Below are positions 4,017-18,981 of a stretch of 64,000 nt of DNA, piece after piece. Made by a program: the position numbers and the translations under genes. Each line of letters starts with the position of its first letter. The stretch's first letter is position 1. This DNA is from Limnohabitans sp. 103DPR2. GTDB taxonomy: Bacteria; Pseudomonadota; Gammaproteobacteria; Burkholderiales; Burkholderiaceae_C. The stretch spans positions 434,001 through 498,000 of the forward strand of contig NZ_CP011834.1 of NCBI RefSeq assembly GCF_001412575.1, in the 5' to 3' direction. Under the pieces are notes generated by a model. The model was not told where the DNA came from, searched no databases, and was given only the letters and a program-made list of their open reading frames with translations.

Positions 4017-4316
4017 ATGTCATTGACTGCCCAAGATATTGACCGCATTGCCAATTTGGCCCGGTTAGAGCTGCCACCCGAGGAGGGCCAACGCATGTTG
4101 GACCAAATCAACGGCTTTTTCACCATCGTGGAAGCCATGCGTGCGGTCGACACCACCGGTGTTCAACCCTTGCCACACCCCATTGCCACCATCCAAGAGG
4201 TGGCCTTGCGCCTGCGGGACGACGTGGCCAGTGAGCCCAATCAGCGAGAGGCCAACCAACAAAGCGCCCCCGCTGTCGAGCGCGGTTTGTTTTTGGTTCC
4301 CAAAGTGATCGAGTAA
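4017..4316 (+). CDS. gatC: Aspartyl/glutamyl-tRNA amidotransferase subunit C
   Basis: GatC is the small stabilising subunit of the GatCAB amidotransferase, which converts Glu-tRNA(Gln) and Asp-tRNA(Asn) to the correct amidated forms. The 99-residue product has the family signature: the N-terminal [16 protein letters not shown] helix region, [22 protein letters not shown] in the middle, and a C-terminal LFLVPKVIE. It is the first gene of gatCAB, with gatA beginning 9 nt after its stop. Length and gene order match the family. Confidence 0.97.
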
Positions 4317-4325
4317 GGGGACGCC

Positions 4326-5801
4326 ATGACCACATTGCATGATTTAACCGTTGCCGCCCTGGCCGCCGACCTTCGCGCTAAAAAAGTCAGCGCCGCCGAG
4401 CTTGCGCAGCACTTTCTGGCGCGCAGCCAAGCCGATACTTCGGGTTCTTTTTTAAGCCTCAATGCAGAAGCCACGCTGGCGCAAGCCAAAGTGGCGGACG
4501 CTCAATTGGCTGCTGGAACAGCCGGCCCTTTGGCCGGTGTGCCTATGGCGCACAAAGACATTTTTGTCACCACCGACTTCCCCACCACGGCCGGCTCCAA
4601 GATGCTGGAGGGCTATCGCTCGCCGTTTGACGCCACCGTGGTGCGTAAATTGGGCGTGCAAGAAGGCGGCGCCGGCATGGTGAATGTGGGCAAGCTCAAT
4701 TGCGATGAATTCGCCATGGGTTCGTCCAATGAGAACTCAGCTTACAAATCCGTCACCAATCCTTGGGACACAAAGCGTGTACCCGGCGGATCGTCGGGTG
4801 GCAGTGCGGCAGCAGTGGCGGCGCGCTTGGTGCCTGCTGCAACGGGCACTGACACCGGGGGTTCAATTCGCCAACCCTCTAGCTTTTGCGGTATCACGGG
4901 CATCAAGCCCACTTACGGCCGCGCATCACGTTACGGCATGATTGCCTATGCGTCGAGCTTGGACCAAGCTGGCCCTATGGCGCGTACGGCAGAAGACTGC
5001 GCATTGATGTTGTCTGCCATGTGCGGCCCCGACTTAGACCGCGACTCCACATCCTTGGATGTGCCCGCAGAAAACTTTGCGCGCGATTTGAATGCCTCCA
5101 TCGATGGCTTGCGCATTGGCATTCCCAAAGAATTTTTTGGTGAAGGTTTGGGGCCTGGCGTTCGCGCAGCAGTCGACGCTGCGTTGAAAGAATACGAAAA
5201 GCTGGGCGCCAAGTTGGTTCCGATCAGCTTGCCTCGCACAGAACTTTCTATTCCTGTGTACTACATCATTGCGCCTGCTGAGGCGTCGAGCAATTTGAGT
5301 CGTTTTGATGGCGTGAAGTTTGGCCATCGCACCAAGGACTACACCGACCTCGTGTCGATGTACAAGCGCTCGCGTGCTGAAGGTTTTGGCGAAGAAGTGA
5401 AGCGTCGCATCATGACCGGCGCGTATGTGTTGTCGCACGGCTACTACGATGCGTACTATCTGCAAGCGCAAAAAATTCGCCGCATGATTGCCGATGACTT
5501 TCAGCAAGCTTTCAAAGTTTGCGACGTCATTGCGGGTCCTGTCGCACCCACAGTAGCTTGGAAGTTGGGTGAAAAAGCCGACGATCCTGTGGCCAATTAT
5601 TTGGCCGACATCTTTACCTTGCCAGCATCGCTGGCAGGCTTGCCTGGCATGAGCGTGCCAGCAGGATTTGGCGAAGAGGGCATGCCTGTGGGCTTGCAAC
5701 TGATTGGCAATTATTTCAAAGAAGCACAGTTGCTCAATGCCGCACACCGTTTGCAGCAGGCCACTGACTTTCACCTCCGTCAACCAGGAGGCGCAAAATG
5801 A
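4326..5801 (+). CDS. gatA: Aspartyl/glutamyl-tRNA amidotransferase subunit A
   Basis: GatA is the glutaminase that releases ammonia for tRNA-dependent transamidation. The 491-residue protein has the amidase-signature Ser-cisSer-Lys triad: Lys77 in AHKDIF, Ser156 in GGSSGGS, and nucleophile Ser180 in [11 protein letters not shown]. The spacing agrees with known GatA proteins. A C-terminal [16 protein letters not shown] block is also typical. The stop overlaps the gatB start by 4 bp (ATGA), consistent with stoichiometric coupled translation. Confidence 0.98.
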
Positions 5802-9610: not shown

Positions 9611-11704
9611 TCATTCGTTCAAGTCGCTAAAGTCGCTAAAGTCGATTTGTCGGTCTGCGCGGGCAATGGTCTCGGGCCGATGGGCGATGACAATGCGCGT
9701 GAGTTGCAGTTGCGACAGCGTTTGTGAAACCGCTTGTTCGTTGTGCATGTCCAAATGGCTGGTGGCTTCGTCCAAAGCCAATACGGTGGGTTGTCCATAA
9801 AGCGCGCGCGCCAGCAAGAGCCGCTGCTTTTGCCCACCGCTCAAGCCCGAGCCTAACTCCCCAATGAGGGTGTGATACGCCATCGGCATGCGCATGATGT
9901 CGTGGTGAATTTCTGCCAATTGCGCACAGCGTTCAATGGTGGGCTGATGCGGCGCTTGATCAAAGAAAGCAATGTTGTCGGCAATGCTGCCGGTCAGCAG
10001 TGCATCTTCTTGCATGACCACGCCGATTTTGCGGCGTACATTGGACAAGCCCAATTGTTGAACGGGTACGCCACCATACAAAACGATACCGTGGGTGGGA
10101 GCCATAAGTCCCAACATGATCTTGAGCAAGCTGGTTTTGCCGCAACCACTGGCGCCTGTGATGGCCACATGCTCGCCAGCTTGAATGCACAGGTTGAGAT
10201 TCTGAAAGAGCCAGGGCTCGGTGTCGGTGTAACGAAACGAAACATTGCGAAGTTCAAGGCTGGCTGACAGATGGGCCAAATCGTTGACAGGCAAGTTGCC
10301 CTTTGGTGTGTCTTGTTCGGGGGGCGTCAGCACAATGTCGGCCAATCGGTCGCGATGCAAGTTGAGCATCTTGAGTTCGATGCCTTGGTTGATGAGGGCG
10401 CTGACGCGTCCAGTGAATTGCATTTTGTAACTGATGAACGCCAACAGCATGCCAACGGTCAAAACCGAATTGCCGGAGTTCTGTGCTTGTGAGGCCAAAA
10501 TGATTTTGGCGCCTAACCAAAACACACACAAATTTTCCAAACCAAAAATAAGCGTGCGGGCGGCGTTGAAGCCCATGTTGAGTTTGGCTGTCTGAAAATC
10601 ACGGTTCATGACTTCCACCATCAGACTTTGCCAACGCGTTCGACGCTCGTTCTCACGCGCAAACAATTTGAGGGGTGTCATGGCCCGCAGTGTTTCGATG
10701 AAGTGACTTTGCTCTTGACCTGCCAAGACCAAACGTTCGGACGCAGCATGTCGGAAGGGGGCGTAACTGATCCATCGGACGATGGCGTACAAGGCGGAGG
10801 CTGCCATCACCACCCAAGTGAGCGTAGGTGAATAAATGAACATCATGACCAAGGCCGCAATGGCCATCAAGCCGTCGAGCAAAGACTCGAGCGTGGTTTG
10901 GGTCAGTGTTCTTTGAATGTCGTGCACAGCGCCAAAGCGGGAAGCAATATCACCCAGATGGCGCTGCGCAAACCAATCGGCTGGCAACTTGAGCAAATGC
11001 GCAAACACATTGCTCAGCCACTGAATGGACACGGTTTGGCTGAGCACCATGACCCACCAGCTTCGGGCCAAAGAAAGCGCGGATTGAATGAGAAGAATGA
11101 GAGCAAAGCCTGCCACCAAAACCGACAGCAATTCGTGGTCGCCAGATGTCAAGACATCGTCGACCACCGCTTGGTTGAACAGGGGCATGAAGATGGCGAA
11201 GAGTTCGAGAACAAATGCCAATGCCAGTATTTGCGCAGCTGATTTGCCAAACCCTCGAATGTTGCCAGTCAGTTGCGACAAAGGAAACGATTTGGCAACA
11301 GGCTTTGTTTTGAATTGCGCCTGCGGCGTAAGTTCTAGCGCAACACCCGTGAAGTGTTGCGAGGCTGTTGCCAAGCTGATGTTTCGCAGACCAAGTGCTG
11401 GGTCGAGCAAGGTAACTTGCTGTCCCTTGATTTTTTGCAGGACTACAAAGTGGTTCAAGTCCCAATGCAAGATGCAAGGCGTGGCCAGTTGGTGAAGCTC
11501 CTCTAACTCTAAACGAACAGGTCTGGCGTTGAAACCCAAGACTTGACTTTGGTCGATGAGTTGTTTGAGATTGGCGCCCTTCAGGGTCTGAGGAAACTTG
11601 TGCCGCAAATCCATGAGTCGCCAATGCTGGCCGTGTGCATTGGCAATCATGCACAAGCAAGCCAAGCCGCATTCGGCGTTTTGCAGTTGCAGAACCGGAT
11701 TCAA
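9611..11704 (-). CDS. C39 peptidase-containing ABC transporter (double-glycine peptide maturation and export)
   Basis: This single polypeptide should cleave a Gly-Gly leader and export the mature peptide. Residues 1-130 form a C39 cysteine peptidase with Cys12 in NAECGLACL, His in LNHFVVLQ near residue 98, and Asp in LLDPALG near 114, so the triad is intact. An ABC type-1 membrane domain occupies about 165-440. The ATPase domain has Walker A GASGCGKTS, signature LSGGQKQR, Walker B VLALDEATSHLD, and H-loop IVIAHRPET. The start is a TTG that places Cys12 correctly; no ATG lies upstream in frame before a stop. The ribosome-binding site is weak. The length (697) is normal for the family. The C-terminus carries a short 9-bp DNA repeat encoding DFSDFSD. 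Confidence 0.95.
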   Translation of the reverse strand: MNPVLQLQNAECGLACLCMIANAHGQHWRLMDLRHKFPQTLKGANLKQLIDQSQVLGFNARPVRLELEELHQLATPCILHWDLNHFVVLQKIKGQQVTLLDPALGLRNISLATASQHFTGVALELTPQAQFKTKPVAKSFPLSQLTGNIRGFGKSAAQILALAFVLELFAIFMPLFNQAVVDDVLTSGDHELLSVLVAGFALILLIQSALSLARSWWVMVLSQTVSIQWLSNVFAHLLKLPADWFAQRHLGDIASRFGAVHDIQRTLTQTTLESLLDGLMAIAALVMMFIYSPTLTWVVMAASALYAIVRWISYAPFRHAASERLVLAGQEQSHFIETLRAMTPLKLFARENERRTRWQSLMVEVMNRDFQTAKLNMGFNAARTLIFGLENLCVFWLGAKIILASQAQNSGNSVLTVGMLLAFISYKMQFTGRVSALINQGIELKMLNLHRDRLADIVLTPPEQDTPKGNLPVNDLAHLSASLELRNVSFRYTDTEPWLFQNLNLCIQAGEHVAITGASGCGKTSLLKIMLGLMAPTHGIVLYGGVPVQQLGLSNVRRKIGVVMQEDALLTGSIADNIAFFDQAPHQPTIERCAQLAEIHHDIMRMPMAYHTLIGELGSGLSGGQKQRLLLARALYGQPTVLALDEATSHLDMHNEQAVSQTLSQLQLTRIVIAHRPETIARADRQIDFSDFSDLNE

Positions 11705-11731
11705 GTGAAAGCTGCTTTGTGATGAAGAACG

Positions 11732-11762
11732 AGTGCCTGCATAAGGAAGTTACGCAGGCACT
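11732..11762 (-). promoter_or_regulatory. Intercistronic stem-loop between precursor and exporter genes
   Basis: A perfect 9-bp stem, AGTGCCTGC with GCAGGCACT, closes a 13-nt loop. On the minus-strand transcript it begins 11 nt after the precursor stop codon and ends 27 nt before the TTG start of the exporter. No U-run follows, so it is more likely an RNA-stabilising or partially attenuating hairpin than a full terminator. Such a structure would keep precursor mRNA more abundant than exporter mRNA. The function is inference; the pairing is seen directly. Confidence 0.55.
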
Positions 11763-11773
11763 GCATGCCAAGC

Positions 11774-11986
11774 TTATCGGAGGCAAATGCCGTTGGTGTA
11801 GTCGCCCATGGGGTTGTATCCGCCTGTATCTACTGAGCCGTAGCTGGAGGGGTCGAACTCAACTTTTGAGCCGAACTCTACCAAAGTAACTAAATCTGAA
11901 AATGCACTGATTGCTCTAATGGCCCATGTCGTCGCAATGCCTCCACCTTGCACTTCATTCAATTCATCTATGTTCAAACTTCTCAT
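11774..11986 (-). CDS. Double-glycine leader peptide precursor (bacteriocin/microcin-like)
   Basis: The 70-residue product begins MRSLNIDELNEVQGG, a short class II bacteriocin-type leader with hydrophobic residues at Leu4, Ile6/Leu9 and Val12 and the cleavage dipeptide Gly14-Gly15. The predicted core is 55 residues, 16-70. Its first half is hydrophobic (ATTWAIRAISAFSDLVTLVE). The second half is rich in Gly, Tyr, Asp and Ser and ends YTNGICLR with a single cysteine. The core has six acidic and three Lys/Arg residues, so it is anionic. AGGAG sits 6 nt before the ATG and overlaps the end of the CPBP gene. The neighbouring C39-ABC exporter and HlyD protein strongly support secretion. I recognise no specific family for the core. 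Confidence 0.85.
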   Translation of the reverse strand: MRSLNIDELNEVQGGGIATTWAIRAISAFSDLVTLVEFGSKVEFDPSSYGSVDTGGYNPMGDYTNGICLR

Positions 11987-11987
11987 T

Positions 11988-12527
11988 TCACTCTCCTGGT
12001 TGTGCTGAAAAAATCGTTTCAGCGGCGATGTCTGGTTCGAAAAAAGAGGCAACAAGCAAAGTGCTTGCATTGACTGCTGCATGTATGACGCTTGAAAGTA
12101 ACAAGGCTTTGTGTGTTCCCAATTCCAATTTGTGCAAGTCGTACTGTTTTAAAAAAATATAAAAATATGCGTAGAGCGTCAAAACTCTGAAGAGAACAGG
12201 CAACGGATATTCTTTGGGAGTGATGAAGTGAAGTGCTGTGAGCAATGACGGGGCTAATAAAAACATGACCTTGCGGTTGAATAACTTTTCAAAAACGGCT
12301 GCTGACCCAATTAATAAAAGATTTTCGAAATAAGGTGCAATGAGCAGGCTGATGAAAATGATCTTTCCAATGGACATTGAGTCTGTGCCATCGGCTTCAT
12401 AGTCGACATTGCAAAATAAAAGTATCAGTGACAAATAGATGACCTGGAAGACAACAAGGCCCACAGTGACATCGATAAAGCCATGTCGATTGAGATGCGA
12501 AGCCCTGATTTTTTGAACGATGTTCAT
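11988..12527 (-). CDS. CPBP (Rce1/Abi)-family intramembrane protease homologue, candidate immunity protein
   Basis: The 179-residue protein is very hydrophobic, with about five membrane segments. It keeps the Rce1-type active-site pattern: Glu68 in PYFENLLL, His100 in LLTALHF, and His149 and Asn153 in SSVIHAAVN. The spacing is close to that of MmRce1 (E140, H173, H227, N231). The second Glu and the Arg of the usual EExxxR motif are replaced by Asn69 and Ile73. Homologues next to class II bacteriocin genes such as plantaricin loci act as self-immunity proteins (established for lactic acid bacteria). Its position just before the precursor supports that role here. The ATG overlaps the hlyD stop (ATGA). 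A start at 12581 would add residues lying inside hlyD and is unlikely. The gene is visibly AT-rich. Confidence 0.75.
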   Translation of the reverse strand: MNIVQKIRASHLNRHGFIDVTVGLVVFQVIYLSLILLFCNVDYEADGTDSMSIGKIIFISLLIAPYFENLLLIGSAAVFEKLFNRKVMFLLAPSLLTALHFITPKEYPLPVLFRVLTLYAYFYIFLKQYDLHKLELGTHKALLLSSVIHAAVNASTLLVASFFEPDIAAETIFSAQPGE

Positions 12528-13831
12528 GATGTTTGTTGCCGTGCGTGAATGGCCAGAAGTGGCTCGAAAATCCATTCCCAAATGCCTCGAACATCGTGAA
12601 TGACATCGGCTTCGAGGGTCATGCCGGGGCGAAGCAAGTGTTGTTCGCCAAACGCCACAACATGCTGTGATGCCAAGGCCACTTGAATTCGGTAGAGCGG
12701 TTCATTGCTTTGGGTAGAAGCCAGCAGTGCATTGCCTTGGCCATGCGGCAAGTCTTGGGGGGCGATGGGCGTGCCGCTGATTTTGACCACACGACCTTTG
12801 GCCAAGCCAAATTTTTGATACGGATAGGCGGCAAGTCGCAACCAAACTTCTTGCCCAGGCTGAATGAAGCCGGCTGTGCGCGTGGGTGCAAACAGCGCTG
12901 CGATCAGTGGCGCGTGGGCTTGAAGTTGTGGGGCTTGGGGTTCCGTTTGGGGCACCAAACTGGCGATGGTTTGACCCGCTTGAATCACTGCGCCCAAGGG
13001 CAAATGGAGCGTGCTGATTTGCCCCGCTTGTGGCGCCAACACGCTGCTGGTTTTGCGCAATTGATTTTCGGCCGTTTCTTGATCGAGGCTGGCCAGGCTG
13101 CGATCGACTTGGAGCAGGTCGATGGCCCCTTGTTTTTGCAGGCTGTTCAATTCGGCTTGAGCTGCGCGGTGTTCTCGCGTGAGTGCTGTGCCATTGCGCT
13201 GTGTATTTTCTAAGCGGGATTGCAGGTCGATGAGTTCTTCTTGTTTGTTTTGCGCCTGGATGTCGGAAACAAAACCCTCGTGGGCCATTTGTTCAAAGCG
13301 GCGCCATGTTTTGTGCGCCAACTCGACTCGGCGTTTGGCAAGGGCTTGCTCTTGGGTGGCTTGCTCGGACTCGAGTGACAAGGAGCGAACGCGCTCGGTC
13401 ATGTGCAAGAGGCGCTGTGCGTGCTGAGACTGGCGAGAGGCGCGCTCTGACAGCAAGGTGGTGCGGCGCTGTGCCAAATGAGAGGCCAGCAATGCTGAGG
13501 CGCTGCCCTCGGGTGTGGCTTTGTCGGTGTTGATGACAAACAGCGTTTGGCCTTGTTGAACCCACTCGCCTTCTTGCACGGTTTGCGACAGCAAAACCCC
13601 CGCGGTGGGAGCGCTCAATTCGAGCGTGCCCATTTGTGCCATGAGGATGCCCGGCACACGCACTTTGCGTGCAACTTTGCCCCAAGCGCCAAATGCCACC
13701 AGGGCACCTGCAAGGGCCAGAGCGACACCTGCGATCAGGCTAAAACGCGGATGGTGTGCCAAGTGAATGCCGCCTAGCCAAGAAGCTTGCTTGGCTTGGG
13801 TGACTTGGCGGCGAAAAAGTGGGGTGTGCAT
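12524..13831 (-). CDS. HlyD-family membrane fusion protein (peptide secretion adaptor)
   Basis: The 435-residue protein has an inner-membrane anchor at about residues 30-52 after a basic N-terminus. A lipoyl/barrel-sandwich half follows near 75-110 (LSAPTAGVLLSQTVQEGEWV), then a long coiled-coil hairpin at about 115-245, the second lipoyl half (VLAPQAGQISTLHLPLGAVI), and a beta-barrel with PGQEVWLRLAAYP. This is the CvaA/HlyD plan that links an inner-membrane ABC exporter to a TolC-type channel. No outer-membrane gene lies in the window. It is the first gene of the operon and overlaps the next gene by 4 bp. The ATG is preceded after only 3 nt by AAGGA, which lies inside a hairpin. Confidence 0.93.
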   Translation of the reverse strand: MHTPLFRRQVTQAKQASWLGGIHLAHHPRFSLIAGVALALAGALVAFGAWGKVARKVRVPGILMAQMGTLELSAPTAGVLLSQTVQEGEWVQQGQTLFVINTDKATPEGSASALLASHLAQRRTTLLSERASRQSQHAQRLLHMTERVRSLSLESEQATQEQALAKRRVELAHKTWRRFEQMAHEGFVSDIQAQNKQEELIDLQSRLENTQRNGTALTREHRAAQAELNSLQKQGAIDLLQVDRSLASLDQETAENQLRKTSSVLAPQAGQISTLHLPLGAVIQAGQTIASLVPQTEPQAPQLQAHAPLIAALFAPTRTAGFIQPGQEVWLRLAAYPYQKFGLAKGRVVKISGTPIAPQDLPHGQGNALLASTQSNEPLYRIQVALASQHVVAFGEQHLLRPGMTLEADVIHDVRGIWEWIFEPLLAIHARQQTS

Positions 13832-16899: not shown

Positions 16900-16991
16900 T
16901 TTACCTAACTTTACGAGGCATTCAACAGATGCCGATGCAATTGCGCTTTGGCAGGTGCATCATGGTGGTGTAAGCAAGCTTGACTAAAAGT

Positions 16992-17696
16992 ATGACGCCG
17001 CAATTGTTGATGATTGAAGACGATGAACGCCTGGCCAAGATGGTGGGAGATTACCTGCGTCAGTCAGGTTTTGGTTTTGCACATGCAGCAGACGGCACCC
17101 ATGGCTTGGCGGCAGTGCAAAAGACGTCCCCTGATTTGGTCATTTTGGACCTGATGCTGCCCGACATGGATGGCTTGCAAGTGTGTCAAAAAATTCGCGG
17201 CCTCAGTGGCGCGCATGCGCAAACACCGGTGCTCATGCTCACCGCCAAAGGCGATCCCATGGACCGCATCATTGGCTTGGAACTGGGCGCTGACGATTAC
17301 TTGCCAAAACCCTTTGAGCCCCGAGAACTCTTGGCGCGCATTCGCGCCATCTTGCGCCGCAAAACCGATGCAGGATCTGGCAGCCACACGCGCATGCAAT
17401 TTGGCAGCTTGGAAATTGACCGCGATGCACGCACAGTCAGCGTCAACGGGCAAGCGTGCGACCTCACTTCGTATCAATTCGATTTGTTGGTGGCCATGGC
17501 GGAGCGCGCCGGACGCGTGCTCACCCGCGATCAAATCATGGAAGCAGTGCGGGGCCGTGAACTCGAAGCCTTTGACCGCTCGATTGATGTTCACATGGGC
17601 CGCATCCGCATGGCCATCGAAAAAGATCACAAAGTTCCCGAGCGAATTTTGACGGTGCGCGGCGTGGGCTATGTTTTTGCCAAACAACAAAAATAA
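16992..17696 (+). CDS. OmpR-family response regulator
   Basis: The 234-residue protein has a receiver domain with acidic pocket Glu9-Asp10-Asp11 and phospho-acceptor Asp53 in VILDLMLPD. Conserved Thr (LMLTAKGD) and Lys (DDYLPKPFEP) follow. A winged-helix domain with LTSYQFDLLVAMAERAGRVL and DVHMGRIRMAIE resembles RstA/CpxR-type regulators. I chose the ATG at 16992; a TTG four codons earlier is possible. The kinase gene follows after 7 nt, so the two form a cognate pair. Targets are unknown. Confidence 0.92.
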   Translation: MTPQLLMIEDDERLAKMVGDYLRQSGFGFAHAADGTHGLAAVQKTSPDLVILDLMLPDMDGLQVCQKIRGLSGAHAQTPVLMLTAKGDPMDRIIGLELGADDYLPKPFEPRELLARIRAILRRKTDAGSGSHTRMQFGSLEIDRDARTVSVNGQACDLTSYQFDLLVAMAERAGRVLTRDQIMEAVRGRELEAFDRSIDVHMGRIRMAIEKDHKVPERILTVRGVGYVFAKQQK

Positions 17697-17703
17697 GCCG
17701 CGC

Positions 17704-18981
17704 ATGAATTGGATCGCTTCCATCTCAAAACATTTGTACTTGCGGATTTGGTTGGCCGTGGTGCTGGGTGTGGCCGTGTTGATGTTGGTGGTGGGTTGGG
17801 CTTGGAGTTTGTCGGTTGAGCACGTGGCCCACAATGGACCGCAAGGTGTGCGCGAGTTGCAAGTGCGCAATGACAAAGGCGAATTGATCACGGCCGTGCC
17901 CGGCCAATTGCAACGTGGCGTGGGTGTGAATTTTGAGGTGACCTTGCCCGATGGCCAAACCTTGAATTTGTTGCTGCCACGTCGCCCGCCTGCTGCGGGT
18001 CAAACGCCAGGCCTCGGTGCAGACGGTGGCGGGGCCATGGGCATGGGCAACGGCCCTCGTGATCTGTCGCCTTGGTGGGCGCGGCCGCCTTATGGTTTTG
18101 TCTGGATGTTGGTGTTGGTCGGTTTGGCTGTGGCCATTGGCGTGTATCCCATTGTGCGCAAGTTGACGCAGCGTTTGGAGTCATTGCAGCAGGGTGTACA
18201 GCGCTGGGGTGAGGGCGACTTGACGGTGCGCATGCCAGAGCAAGGTCAAGACGAAGTGGCCGATTTGTCCAAACGTTTCAATGCAGCAGCCGAACGCATT
18301 CAGCACTTGATGAGTTCGCAGCAAAGTTTGTTGAACTCGCAAAGATCTTTGTTGGCCAACGCCTCGCATGAGCTTCGTTCGCCGTTGACGCGCATCCGCA
18401 TGGGCTTGGAGTTCTTGGGCGCCGACAACAGCAACGGTGCCAAACAAGAAATCGCGCGCAACATTGCTGAGCTTGATCAGTTGATCGACGAGATATTGTT
18501 GGCCAGTCGTTTGGATGCGCAAGAAGCCGATTTGGGCACCGTTGAAGCAGTGGATTTGATGGGCTTGTGTGCAGAAGAGTGCGCGCGCGTGGGCGCGGTG
18601 TTGGAGGTTCAAACGGGTGTGCAGTCCCTTGAGATGCACGGGGTGGTGAAGTTGATGCGACGCCTGATTCGCAATTTGCTCGAGAACGCCGGCCGCTATG
18701 GCGCCATCAACGGCCCTGAAGATGTGCACGTGATGGCTGCTGTGACCGACCACGAAGTGGTCTTGACGGTGAGCGATCGGGGGCCAGGTGTACCGCATGC
18801 CTTTCGCCAGAAAATTTTTGAACCCTTCTTTCGTTTGCCTGGCGCCAGCGAAAAAGCCGGCAGTGTGGGCTTGGGCTTGTCTTTGGTGAAGTCAATTGCA
18901 GAGCGTCACCATGGTCAGGTGACCTGTGAAGACCGCGAAGGAGGCGGGGCTAGTTTTGTGGTGCGTTTGCCCAAGCTTTGA
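17704..18981 (+). CDS. Two-component sensor histidine kinase
   Basis: The 425-residue kinase has two membrane segments, at about residues 14-36 and 132-152, flanking a periplasmic domain. A HAMP region follows with VRKLTQRLESLQQGVQRWGE. The HisKA box NASHELRSPLTRIR carries the phospho-His near residue 222. HATPase motifs NLLENAGRYG, DRGPGVP and GLGLSLVKSIAERHHG complete the core. The last part of the periplasmic loop is unusually rich in Pro, Gly and Met (PAAGQTPGLGADGGG, GMGNGPRDLSPWW). The start at MNWIASISKH leaves 7 nt to the regulator gene; an earlier in-frame ATG lies inside that gene. Confidence 0.92.
   Translation: MNWIASISKHLYLRIWLAVVLGVAVLMLVVGWAWSLSVEHVAHNGPQGVRELQVRNDKGELITAVPGQLQRGVGVNFEVTLPDGQTLNLLLPRRPPAAGQTPGLGADGGGAMGMGNGPRDLSPWWARPPYGFVWMLVLVGLAVAIGVYPIVRKLTQRLESLQQGVQRWGEGDLTVRMPEQGQDEVADLSKRFNAAAERIQHLMSSQQSLLNSQRSLLANASHELRSPLTRIRMGLEFLGADNSNGAKQEIARNIAELDQLIDEILLASRLDAQEADLGTVEAVDLMGLCAEECARVGAVLEVQTGVQSLEMHGVVKLMRRLIRNLLENAGRYGAINGPEDVHVMAAVTDHEVVLTVSDRGPGVPHAFRQKIFEPFFRLPGASEKAGSVGLGLSLVKSIAERHHGQVTCEDREGGGASFVVRLPKL

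Follow-up and report, generated by a model that had tools for sequence, protein, structure and literature searches.

Microcin S of Escherichia coli G3/10 is encoded by the genes mcsS, mcsI, mcsA and mcsB, and its CAAX-family protein McsI has been shown to confer immunity (PMC3316575). Microcin V exemplifies the class II five-part plan, in which CvaC, Cvi, CvaB and CvaA are joined by TolC, which is encoded elsewhere on the chromosome (PMC10233263). This 2022 review counts 15 functionally confirmed microcins, all from Enterobacteriaceae, and describes most microcins as neutral or anionic (PMC10233263). McbABCI of Moraxella catarrhalis is outlined as a compact four-gene operon for a GG bacteriocin with cognate immunity (PMC2761928), and CAAX/Abi-family proteins of Gram-positive bacteria have been reported in bacteriocin self-immunity (PMC9298176).

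The DNA analyzed here, hereafter called the window, is a stretch of 64,000 nucleotides from Limnohabitans sp. 103DPR2 (positions 434001-498000 of a single 2.95-Mb contig), and the operon that we describe in it is chromosomal. Limnohabitans is an abundant freshwater genus. Among the papers listed for Limnohabitans in combination with bacteriocin or microcin, we found none on such a system, and neither ‘Burkholderi-’ nor ‘CPBP’ has a match in the main text of a paper that applies language models to finding microcins (PMC11494933). The first-pass annotation of the window had proposed a compact bacteriocin- or microcin-like operon and had known of no described example with this core peptide in a freshwater-type betaproteobacterium; microcin S and the Moraxella operon are precedents for a system of this type. 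The Limnohabitans operon is microcin-S-like, and its kinds of parts were already known in E. coli.

A four-gene operon with class II microcin anatomy

The operon comprises four genes, all on the minus strand, in the order HlyD, CPBP-like protein, precursor and C39-ABC exporter:

12524..13831, minus strand: HlyD-type membrane fusion protein, 435 aa, first gene of the operon; Pfam HlyD_3, HlyD_D23 and Biotin_lipoyl above cut-off
11988..12527, minus strand: CPBP/Rce1-like membrane protein, 179 aa, probable immunity protein as judged from sequence and analogy; Glu68, His100, His149 and Asn153 invariant
11774..11986, minus strand: precursor peptide, 70 aa; leader residues 1-15 at 11942-11986, core residues 16-70
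9611..11704, minus strand: C39 peptidase-ABC exporter (PCAT), 697 aa, final gene of the operon; Pfam C39, ABC_membrane and ABC_tran, plus motifs

The CPBP-like gene overlaps the HlyD gene by ATGA, a single nucleotide separates its stop codon from the precursor start, and a gap of 69 nt lies between the precursor and the exporter, whose start codon is TTG. This is precisely the arrangement given in the first-pass annotation, whose adaptor and exporter assignments are likewise borne out by Pfam domains above cut-off, including a C39 match of 115 bits and the ABC membrane and ATPase domains of the exporter. The NCBIfam exporter and adaptor models, TIGR01843 for the adaptor among them, score far under their cut-offs. 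Consistent with the claim that its motifs are intact, the exporter carries Cys12, His85 and Asp101, which we take to be the motifs usually assigned as the C39 triad, together with Walker A, LSGGQ, Walker B and H-loop motifs. The one part said to be absent from the operon, the outer-membrane channel, has TolC-type candidates elsewhere in the genome (13 OEP-domain matches, 11 of them above cut-off, in six open frames). The locus exhibits the anatomy of a class II (IIa) microcin operon, with a GG precursor, an adjacent C39-ABC exporter and fusion protein, and a TolC-type gene in the genome. An Rfam scan of the window at gathering thresholds gave no match.

The precursor peptide

The leader of the precursor, MRSLNIDELNEVQGG, has a form typical of double-glycine leaders, and the leader model TIGR01847 scores under its cut-off (13.1 versus 15.7 bits). 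No Pfam or NCBIfam family, those for bacteriocins included, matches the precursor above cut-off. A database search yielded 37 precursor homologues, and the operon is present in 19 of 90 genomes of the genus. An alignment of the query with 36 of these 37 matches (P0026, of 110 aa, was left out) shows G14 and G15 to be invariant in its 37 rows. A GG or GS precursor is encoded at every one of the 19 operon loci, with GS replacing GG in two alleles (G076 and G052). Cleavage after Gly15 is predicted to release a core of 55 residues with an average mass of 5851.4, and the core is acidic across the 19 alleles (pI 4.1-4.9).

A low-confidence structural model of the precursor (pLDDT 59) predicts a helix at residues 15-42 and a loose, unstructured tail. 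The tail motif N-x-MGD-[YF] is kept in 18 of the 19 alleles, and a Cys residue follows it in 14 (it is absent in G033, G075, G060, G007 and G089). Because pN/pS is 0.54 in both core halves (18 loci), the conservation of the tail is relative, and is clearest in the end motif. No second precursor of the same family was found in the window’s own genome at E values up to 10. At the same chromosomal site in G089, two 61-aa GG precursors lie on either side of the CPBP gene (L064, 3921-4895, minus strand), and this pair is possibly a two-peptide form.

Distribution and chromosomal site

Gene order is conserved in 18 of the 19 operon genomes, the exception being G089 with its two precursors. This conservation, together with the 37 precursor homologues, excludes a chance origin of the operon. 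Contig ends cut the HlyD gene in G053 and the exporter gene in G052, and the G076 exporter carries an internal stop. CPBP relatives are present in exactly the 19 operon genomes, one apiece, with none outside the operon in the 90 genus genomes (E 1e-5). In a family sample of 399 genomes from 141 genera, relatives were found in two genomes, both from Limnohabitans.

Exporter relatives at E 1e-80 are more widespread, being found in 31 of the 90 genus genomes: the 19 operon carriers, two in which contig ends cut the site (G025 and G064) and 10 with more distant exporters. Nine of these 10 were inspected, and none has the flanking genes of the operon, apart from a single match at 25% to the M48 gene, in G054. 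Three loci (L066, L067 and L068, in G009, G071 and G011) hold related exporters (71%) that are separated by other genes from an HlyD gene 1.7-4.1 kb off. L067 (467-853) and L068 (13700-13885) encode GG peptides unrelated to the precursor, and L066 carries a transposase-like gene, named by eye, at 4306-5313.

Both flanks of one chromosomal site are present in 17 of the 19 operon genomes. Empty sites were scored in the 63 genomes that have both flanking genes on a single contig. The flanking genes are less than 200 nt apart, representing an empty site, in 29 genomes, 4359-4724 nt apart in 16, all of which carry the operon, and at other distances (244 nt to 29 kb) in the remaining 18. One of these 18 is G026, where the 539 nt between the flanks (L139, about 1371-1911) retain exporter residues 586-690 and, from the start of the HlyD gene, 28 codons; this remnant is a deletion scar that has lost the central part of the operon. 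In G056, 4267 nt lie between the same two flanking genes (C270, 81627-85893), with no exporter match at 1e-80.

Divergence and exchange within the operon

The precursor and the CPBP-like protein have median pairwise identities of 0.49 and 0.58 among the 19 loci, versus 0.85 for the ABC exporter, 0.78 for HlyD and 0.81-0.96 for the flanking genes. The genome of the window (G000) and its closest relative (G079) diverge in one tract:

11867..12467, minus strand: 601-nt divergent tract that opens at codon 21 of CPBP and closes at codon 40 of the precursor, window versus G079

The two genomes are strongly different throughout this tract, whereas its flanks are about 97% identical. The borders are sharp and lie inside both genes: the 213 nt before 12467 and the 267 nt after 11867 hold four differences each. 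Synonymous divergence (pS) between the two is 0.60 in the CPBP gene and 0.43 in the precursor gene, compared to 0.10-0.16 in the exporter genes and 0.10-0.19 when exporter and flanking genes are taken together. Such high synonymous divergence indicates replacement by a diverged allele, and not just rapid protein change. The sequences suggest that the front half of the peptide and the gene for its likely protector were exchanged together while the remaining operon did not move, which is the pattern expected for a toxin and its cognate immunity protein.

Other pairs depart in part from this pattern. When G053 is compared with G076, G063 and G086, pS is 0.59-0.74 for CPBP, 0.52-0.63 for the precursor and 0.29-0.42 for ABC, and the tail (0.67-0.69) and the gap after it (0.54-0.61) also differ, which means that the downstream border in the G079 comparison does not hold for every pair. 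Between G060 and G052, precursor pS is 0.67 and CPBP pS is 0.37, near the ABC value of 0.35. The precursor can thus change without CPBP, and joint exchange is not universal. No exchange was seen in the close pairs G063-G033, G031-G018 and G031-G039.

Once ABC divergence is corrected for, CPBP has a partial correlation of 0.48 (0.44 without G089) with core residues 16-41 and hardly any with the leader and the tail (0.0 to 0.12). All of these are associations inside one locus, to which linkage contributes. The uncorrected correlation of the tail with CPBP has a rho of 0.33 (p 0.04), or 0.22 without G089. Quick trees (SH-aLRT) join G000 with G079 for ABC (100) and G079 with G048 for CPBP (98), but in an AU test a G000+G079 clade is still compatible with the CPBP data at the 0.05 level (p 0.06). 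A clade of G053, G076, G063, G033 and G086, a group picked after seeing the identities, is rejected by CPBP (p 1.7e-46) and by the exporter as well (p 0.022), a result that does not set CPBP apart. Measured by stretches in 18 loci (G089 left out), pN/pS is under 1 everywhere except in 13 hairpin codons, where pN and pS are both near 0.05, and positive selection is thus unsupported.

A CPBP-like protein as the candidate immunity protein

At E values up to 1, the CPBP-like protein has no match to the CPBP profiles of Pfam (PF02517) and NCBIfam. Two unrelated Pfam models hit it under their cut-offs, and PF02517 has no match in the window’s own genome at E 0.001. The CPBP label of the first-pass annotation holds because profile-profile comparison (hhalign) matches over the domain: comparisons of the CPBP alignment with 11 of 13 PF02517 matches give 76.5-82.2%, and controls give at most 0.5%. 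Glu68, His100, His149 and Asn153, which presumably correspond to the Rce1 active-site residues, are invariant in 47 aligned sequences. Within the EExxxR, H and HxxxN motifs, this means that one Glu, both His and the Asn are invariant, whereas the second Glu is replaced by Asn and the Arg is not kept. When the CPBP alignment was searched against PDB sequences, all matches were unrelated (best E 0.25), Rce1 is absent among the 50 Foldseek matches listed for the predicted model, and tblastn of the protein against plasmids gave no match at E values up to 1.

The protease role implied by the original label fares less well than the label itself. By analogy with microcin S, and because it was exchanged jointly with the core's front half between the closest relatives, the protein is more likely an immunity protein than a peptide-processing protease. 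The principal alternative is that it serves as a maturation protease that trims the peptide or aids its export and co-evolves with it, with immunity encoded elsewhere. AgrB, which co-evolves with AgrD, offers a parallel, and the four invariant residues matching Rce1 would suit such an enzyme. Moreover, the CAAX protease SilX, encoded next to a bacteriocin in S. anginosus, seems to act in signal-peptide processing rather than immunity (PMC9298176), and so CAAX proteases in bacteriocin loci are not invariably immunity proteins. However, removal of the leader should already fall to the C39 domain, two residues of EExxxR are lost, no additional immunity candidate was seen between the HlyD and exporter genes, and the CAAX-family protein of microcin S has been shown to confer immunity (PMC3316575). 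We consequently regard a maturation protease as unlikely, though it is the alternative that survives best.

RNA hairpins around the precursor gene

Two hairpins border the precursor gene:

12004..12023, minus strand: conserved hairpin GCTGAAACGATTTTTTCAGC, within the final CPBP codons and six nt ahead of the precursor AGGAG
11732..11762, minus strand: terminator-like hairpin in the precursor-exporter gap, from a pattern scan

The first has the stem-loop-stem form GCTGAAA-CGATTT-TTTCAGC. The CPBP codons that hold it (167-179) have a pS of 0.052, as against 0.46-0.72 in the other measured stretches (18 loci, without G089). The 20-mer is identical in 13 of the 19 loci, and each of the remaining six departs from it by one or two changes or, in the case of G086, by two additional T residues in the loop. 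The CPBP gene of G086 stops ahead of the element, which is still retained. Stem cells are 99.1% paired in 16 distinct rows; among the seven stem pairs, two are invariant, four have one G-U each, and one closing pair is broken (in G089). These 16 rows contain no double compensation, and hence give no covariation support. With two or fewer mismatches allowed, the 20-mer has 21 matches, of which 18 lie at the operon and three do not, spread over 20 of the 90 genomes; a reversed control has seven. Identical two-mismatch copies lie off the operon at G060:C88:7621-7640 and G086:C65:8263-8282, and in G089 the hairpin stands before the second of the two precursors. A 31-nt pattern comprising the hairpin and the RBS has no exact match in viral contigs.

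The pattern scan that located the terminator-like hairpin found 12 sites in the region versus 6.9 expected. This hairpin does covary, with double changes in five of nine stem pairs, a level reached by none of 500 shuffles (18 loci, without G089). At least six T residues occur in the ten bases past it at 10 of 18 loci, and the window has five, a weak run. The hairpins are likely to give the precursor separate expression, with partial termination before the exporter.

A model for the function of the operon

Our observations, namely the genes, their distribution and conservation, the exchange tract in one pair and the conservation of the hairpin, are in our judgment probably best explained by a chromosomal class IIa microcin-like operon with dedicated export, a flexible tail, CPBP immunity, cassette exchange and hairpin-set expression. 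The anatomy and evolution of the locus uphold the bacteriocin- or microcin-like reading of the first-pass annotation. The leader would mark the precursor for cleavage after Gly15 by the C39 domain, and the core would leave the cell via the ABC exporter, HlyD and a TolC-type channel whose gene lies outside the operon. The variable and probably helical front half of the core is likely to be the membrane-active and immunity-determining part, and the more conserved, flexible tail may serve in recognition or uptake. The peptide would kill bacteria, and the CPBP-like protein, predicted to sit in the inner membrane, would shield the producer. The CPBP-like protein and the front half of the core would swap as a single cassette among related strains, and the hairpins before and after the precursor probably set its expression apart from that of its neighbors.

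A bolder version is tentative and rather doubtful. It holds that this is a polymorphic microcin with a fixed exporter and targeting tail, a recombining cassette running from immunity to mid-toxin, mutually hostile lake types, and a new, almost unvarying RNA hairpin within the immunity gene that sets precursor output. The partial deviations of the G060-G052 and G053 pairs from the cassette pattern lower its odds slightly.

Two other functions were weighed against a microcin. The peptide might be a secreted signal with variable pherotypes instead of a toxin, as agr-like systems typically link a variable peptide to a membrane protein, and genes for a response regulator and a histidine kinase lie about 3 kb off (16980-18981). 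However, this kinase is 95% identical in G079 although the peptide cassette differs, the operon has no receptor gene, and its parts match those described for microcin S. We therefore set this improbable idea aside, the nearby kinase being invariant with respect to the peptide between the window and G079.

Neisseria gonorrhoeae is a betaproteobacterium. Its Nap peptides are portrayed as bacteriocin-like, with self-lysis and no detectable antimicrobial activity (PMC11798529), but similar programmed lysis of the producer’s own population is the least probable reading here, since a linked immunity-like gene and paired exchange better suit competition between strains.

If the operon does encode a microcin, the 19 natural alleles at one locus, along with a candidate immunity protein that retains Rce1-like residues, would make the recognition between CPBP and peptide testable. 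The same allele series could be used to test whether bacteriocin types structure free-living freshwater populations.

Comparison with known systems

McbABCI of M. catarrhalis, as described, differs from the Limnohabitans operon in its gene order (A-B-C-I), its precursor of 101 aa, and an immunity protein reported to be without significant similarity to others (PMC2761928). In contrast to the Gram-positive systems with CAAX/Abi immunity proteins, the Limnohabitans operon has a Gram-negative host and an HlyD-type adaptor. It matches the five-part plan outlined for microcin V, with the channel gene located elsewhere (PMC10233263), but the microcin V immunity protein is given as about 6.5 kDa (PMC6795089), far smaller than the 179-aa CPBP-like protein.

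The closest known system is microcin S of E. coli. As far as the gene descriptions go, both loci cluster four components: a leader-bearing class II precursor, a CAAX-family protein, an HlyD-family protein and an ABC transporter with a peptidase domain (PMC3316575). McsI and the Limnohabitans protein are likened by CAAX/CPBP family description. The genes of microcin S are listed in the order S-I-A-B and reside on a plasmid, whereas those of Limnohabitans run HlyD-CPBP-precursor-ABC at one chromosomal site. Finally, the Limnohabitans core is anionic, whereas microcin S is named among the exceptions to the neutral or anionic rule (PMC10233263).
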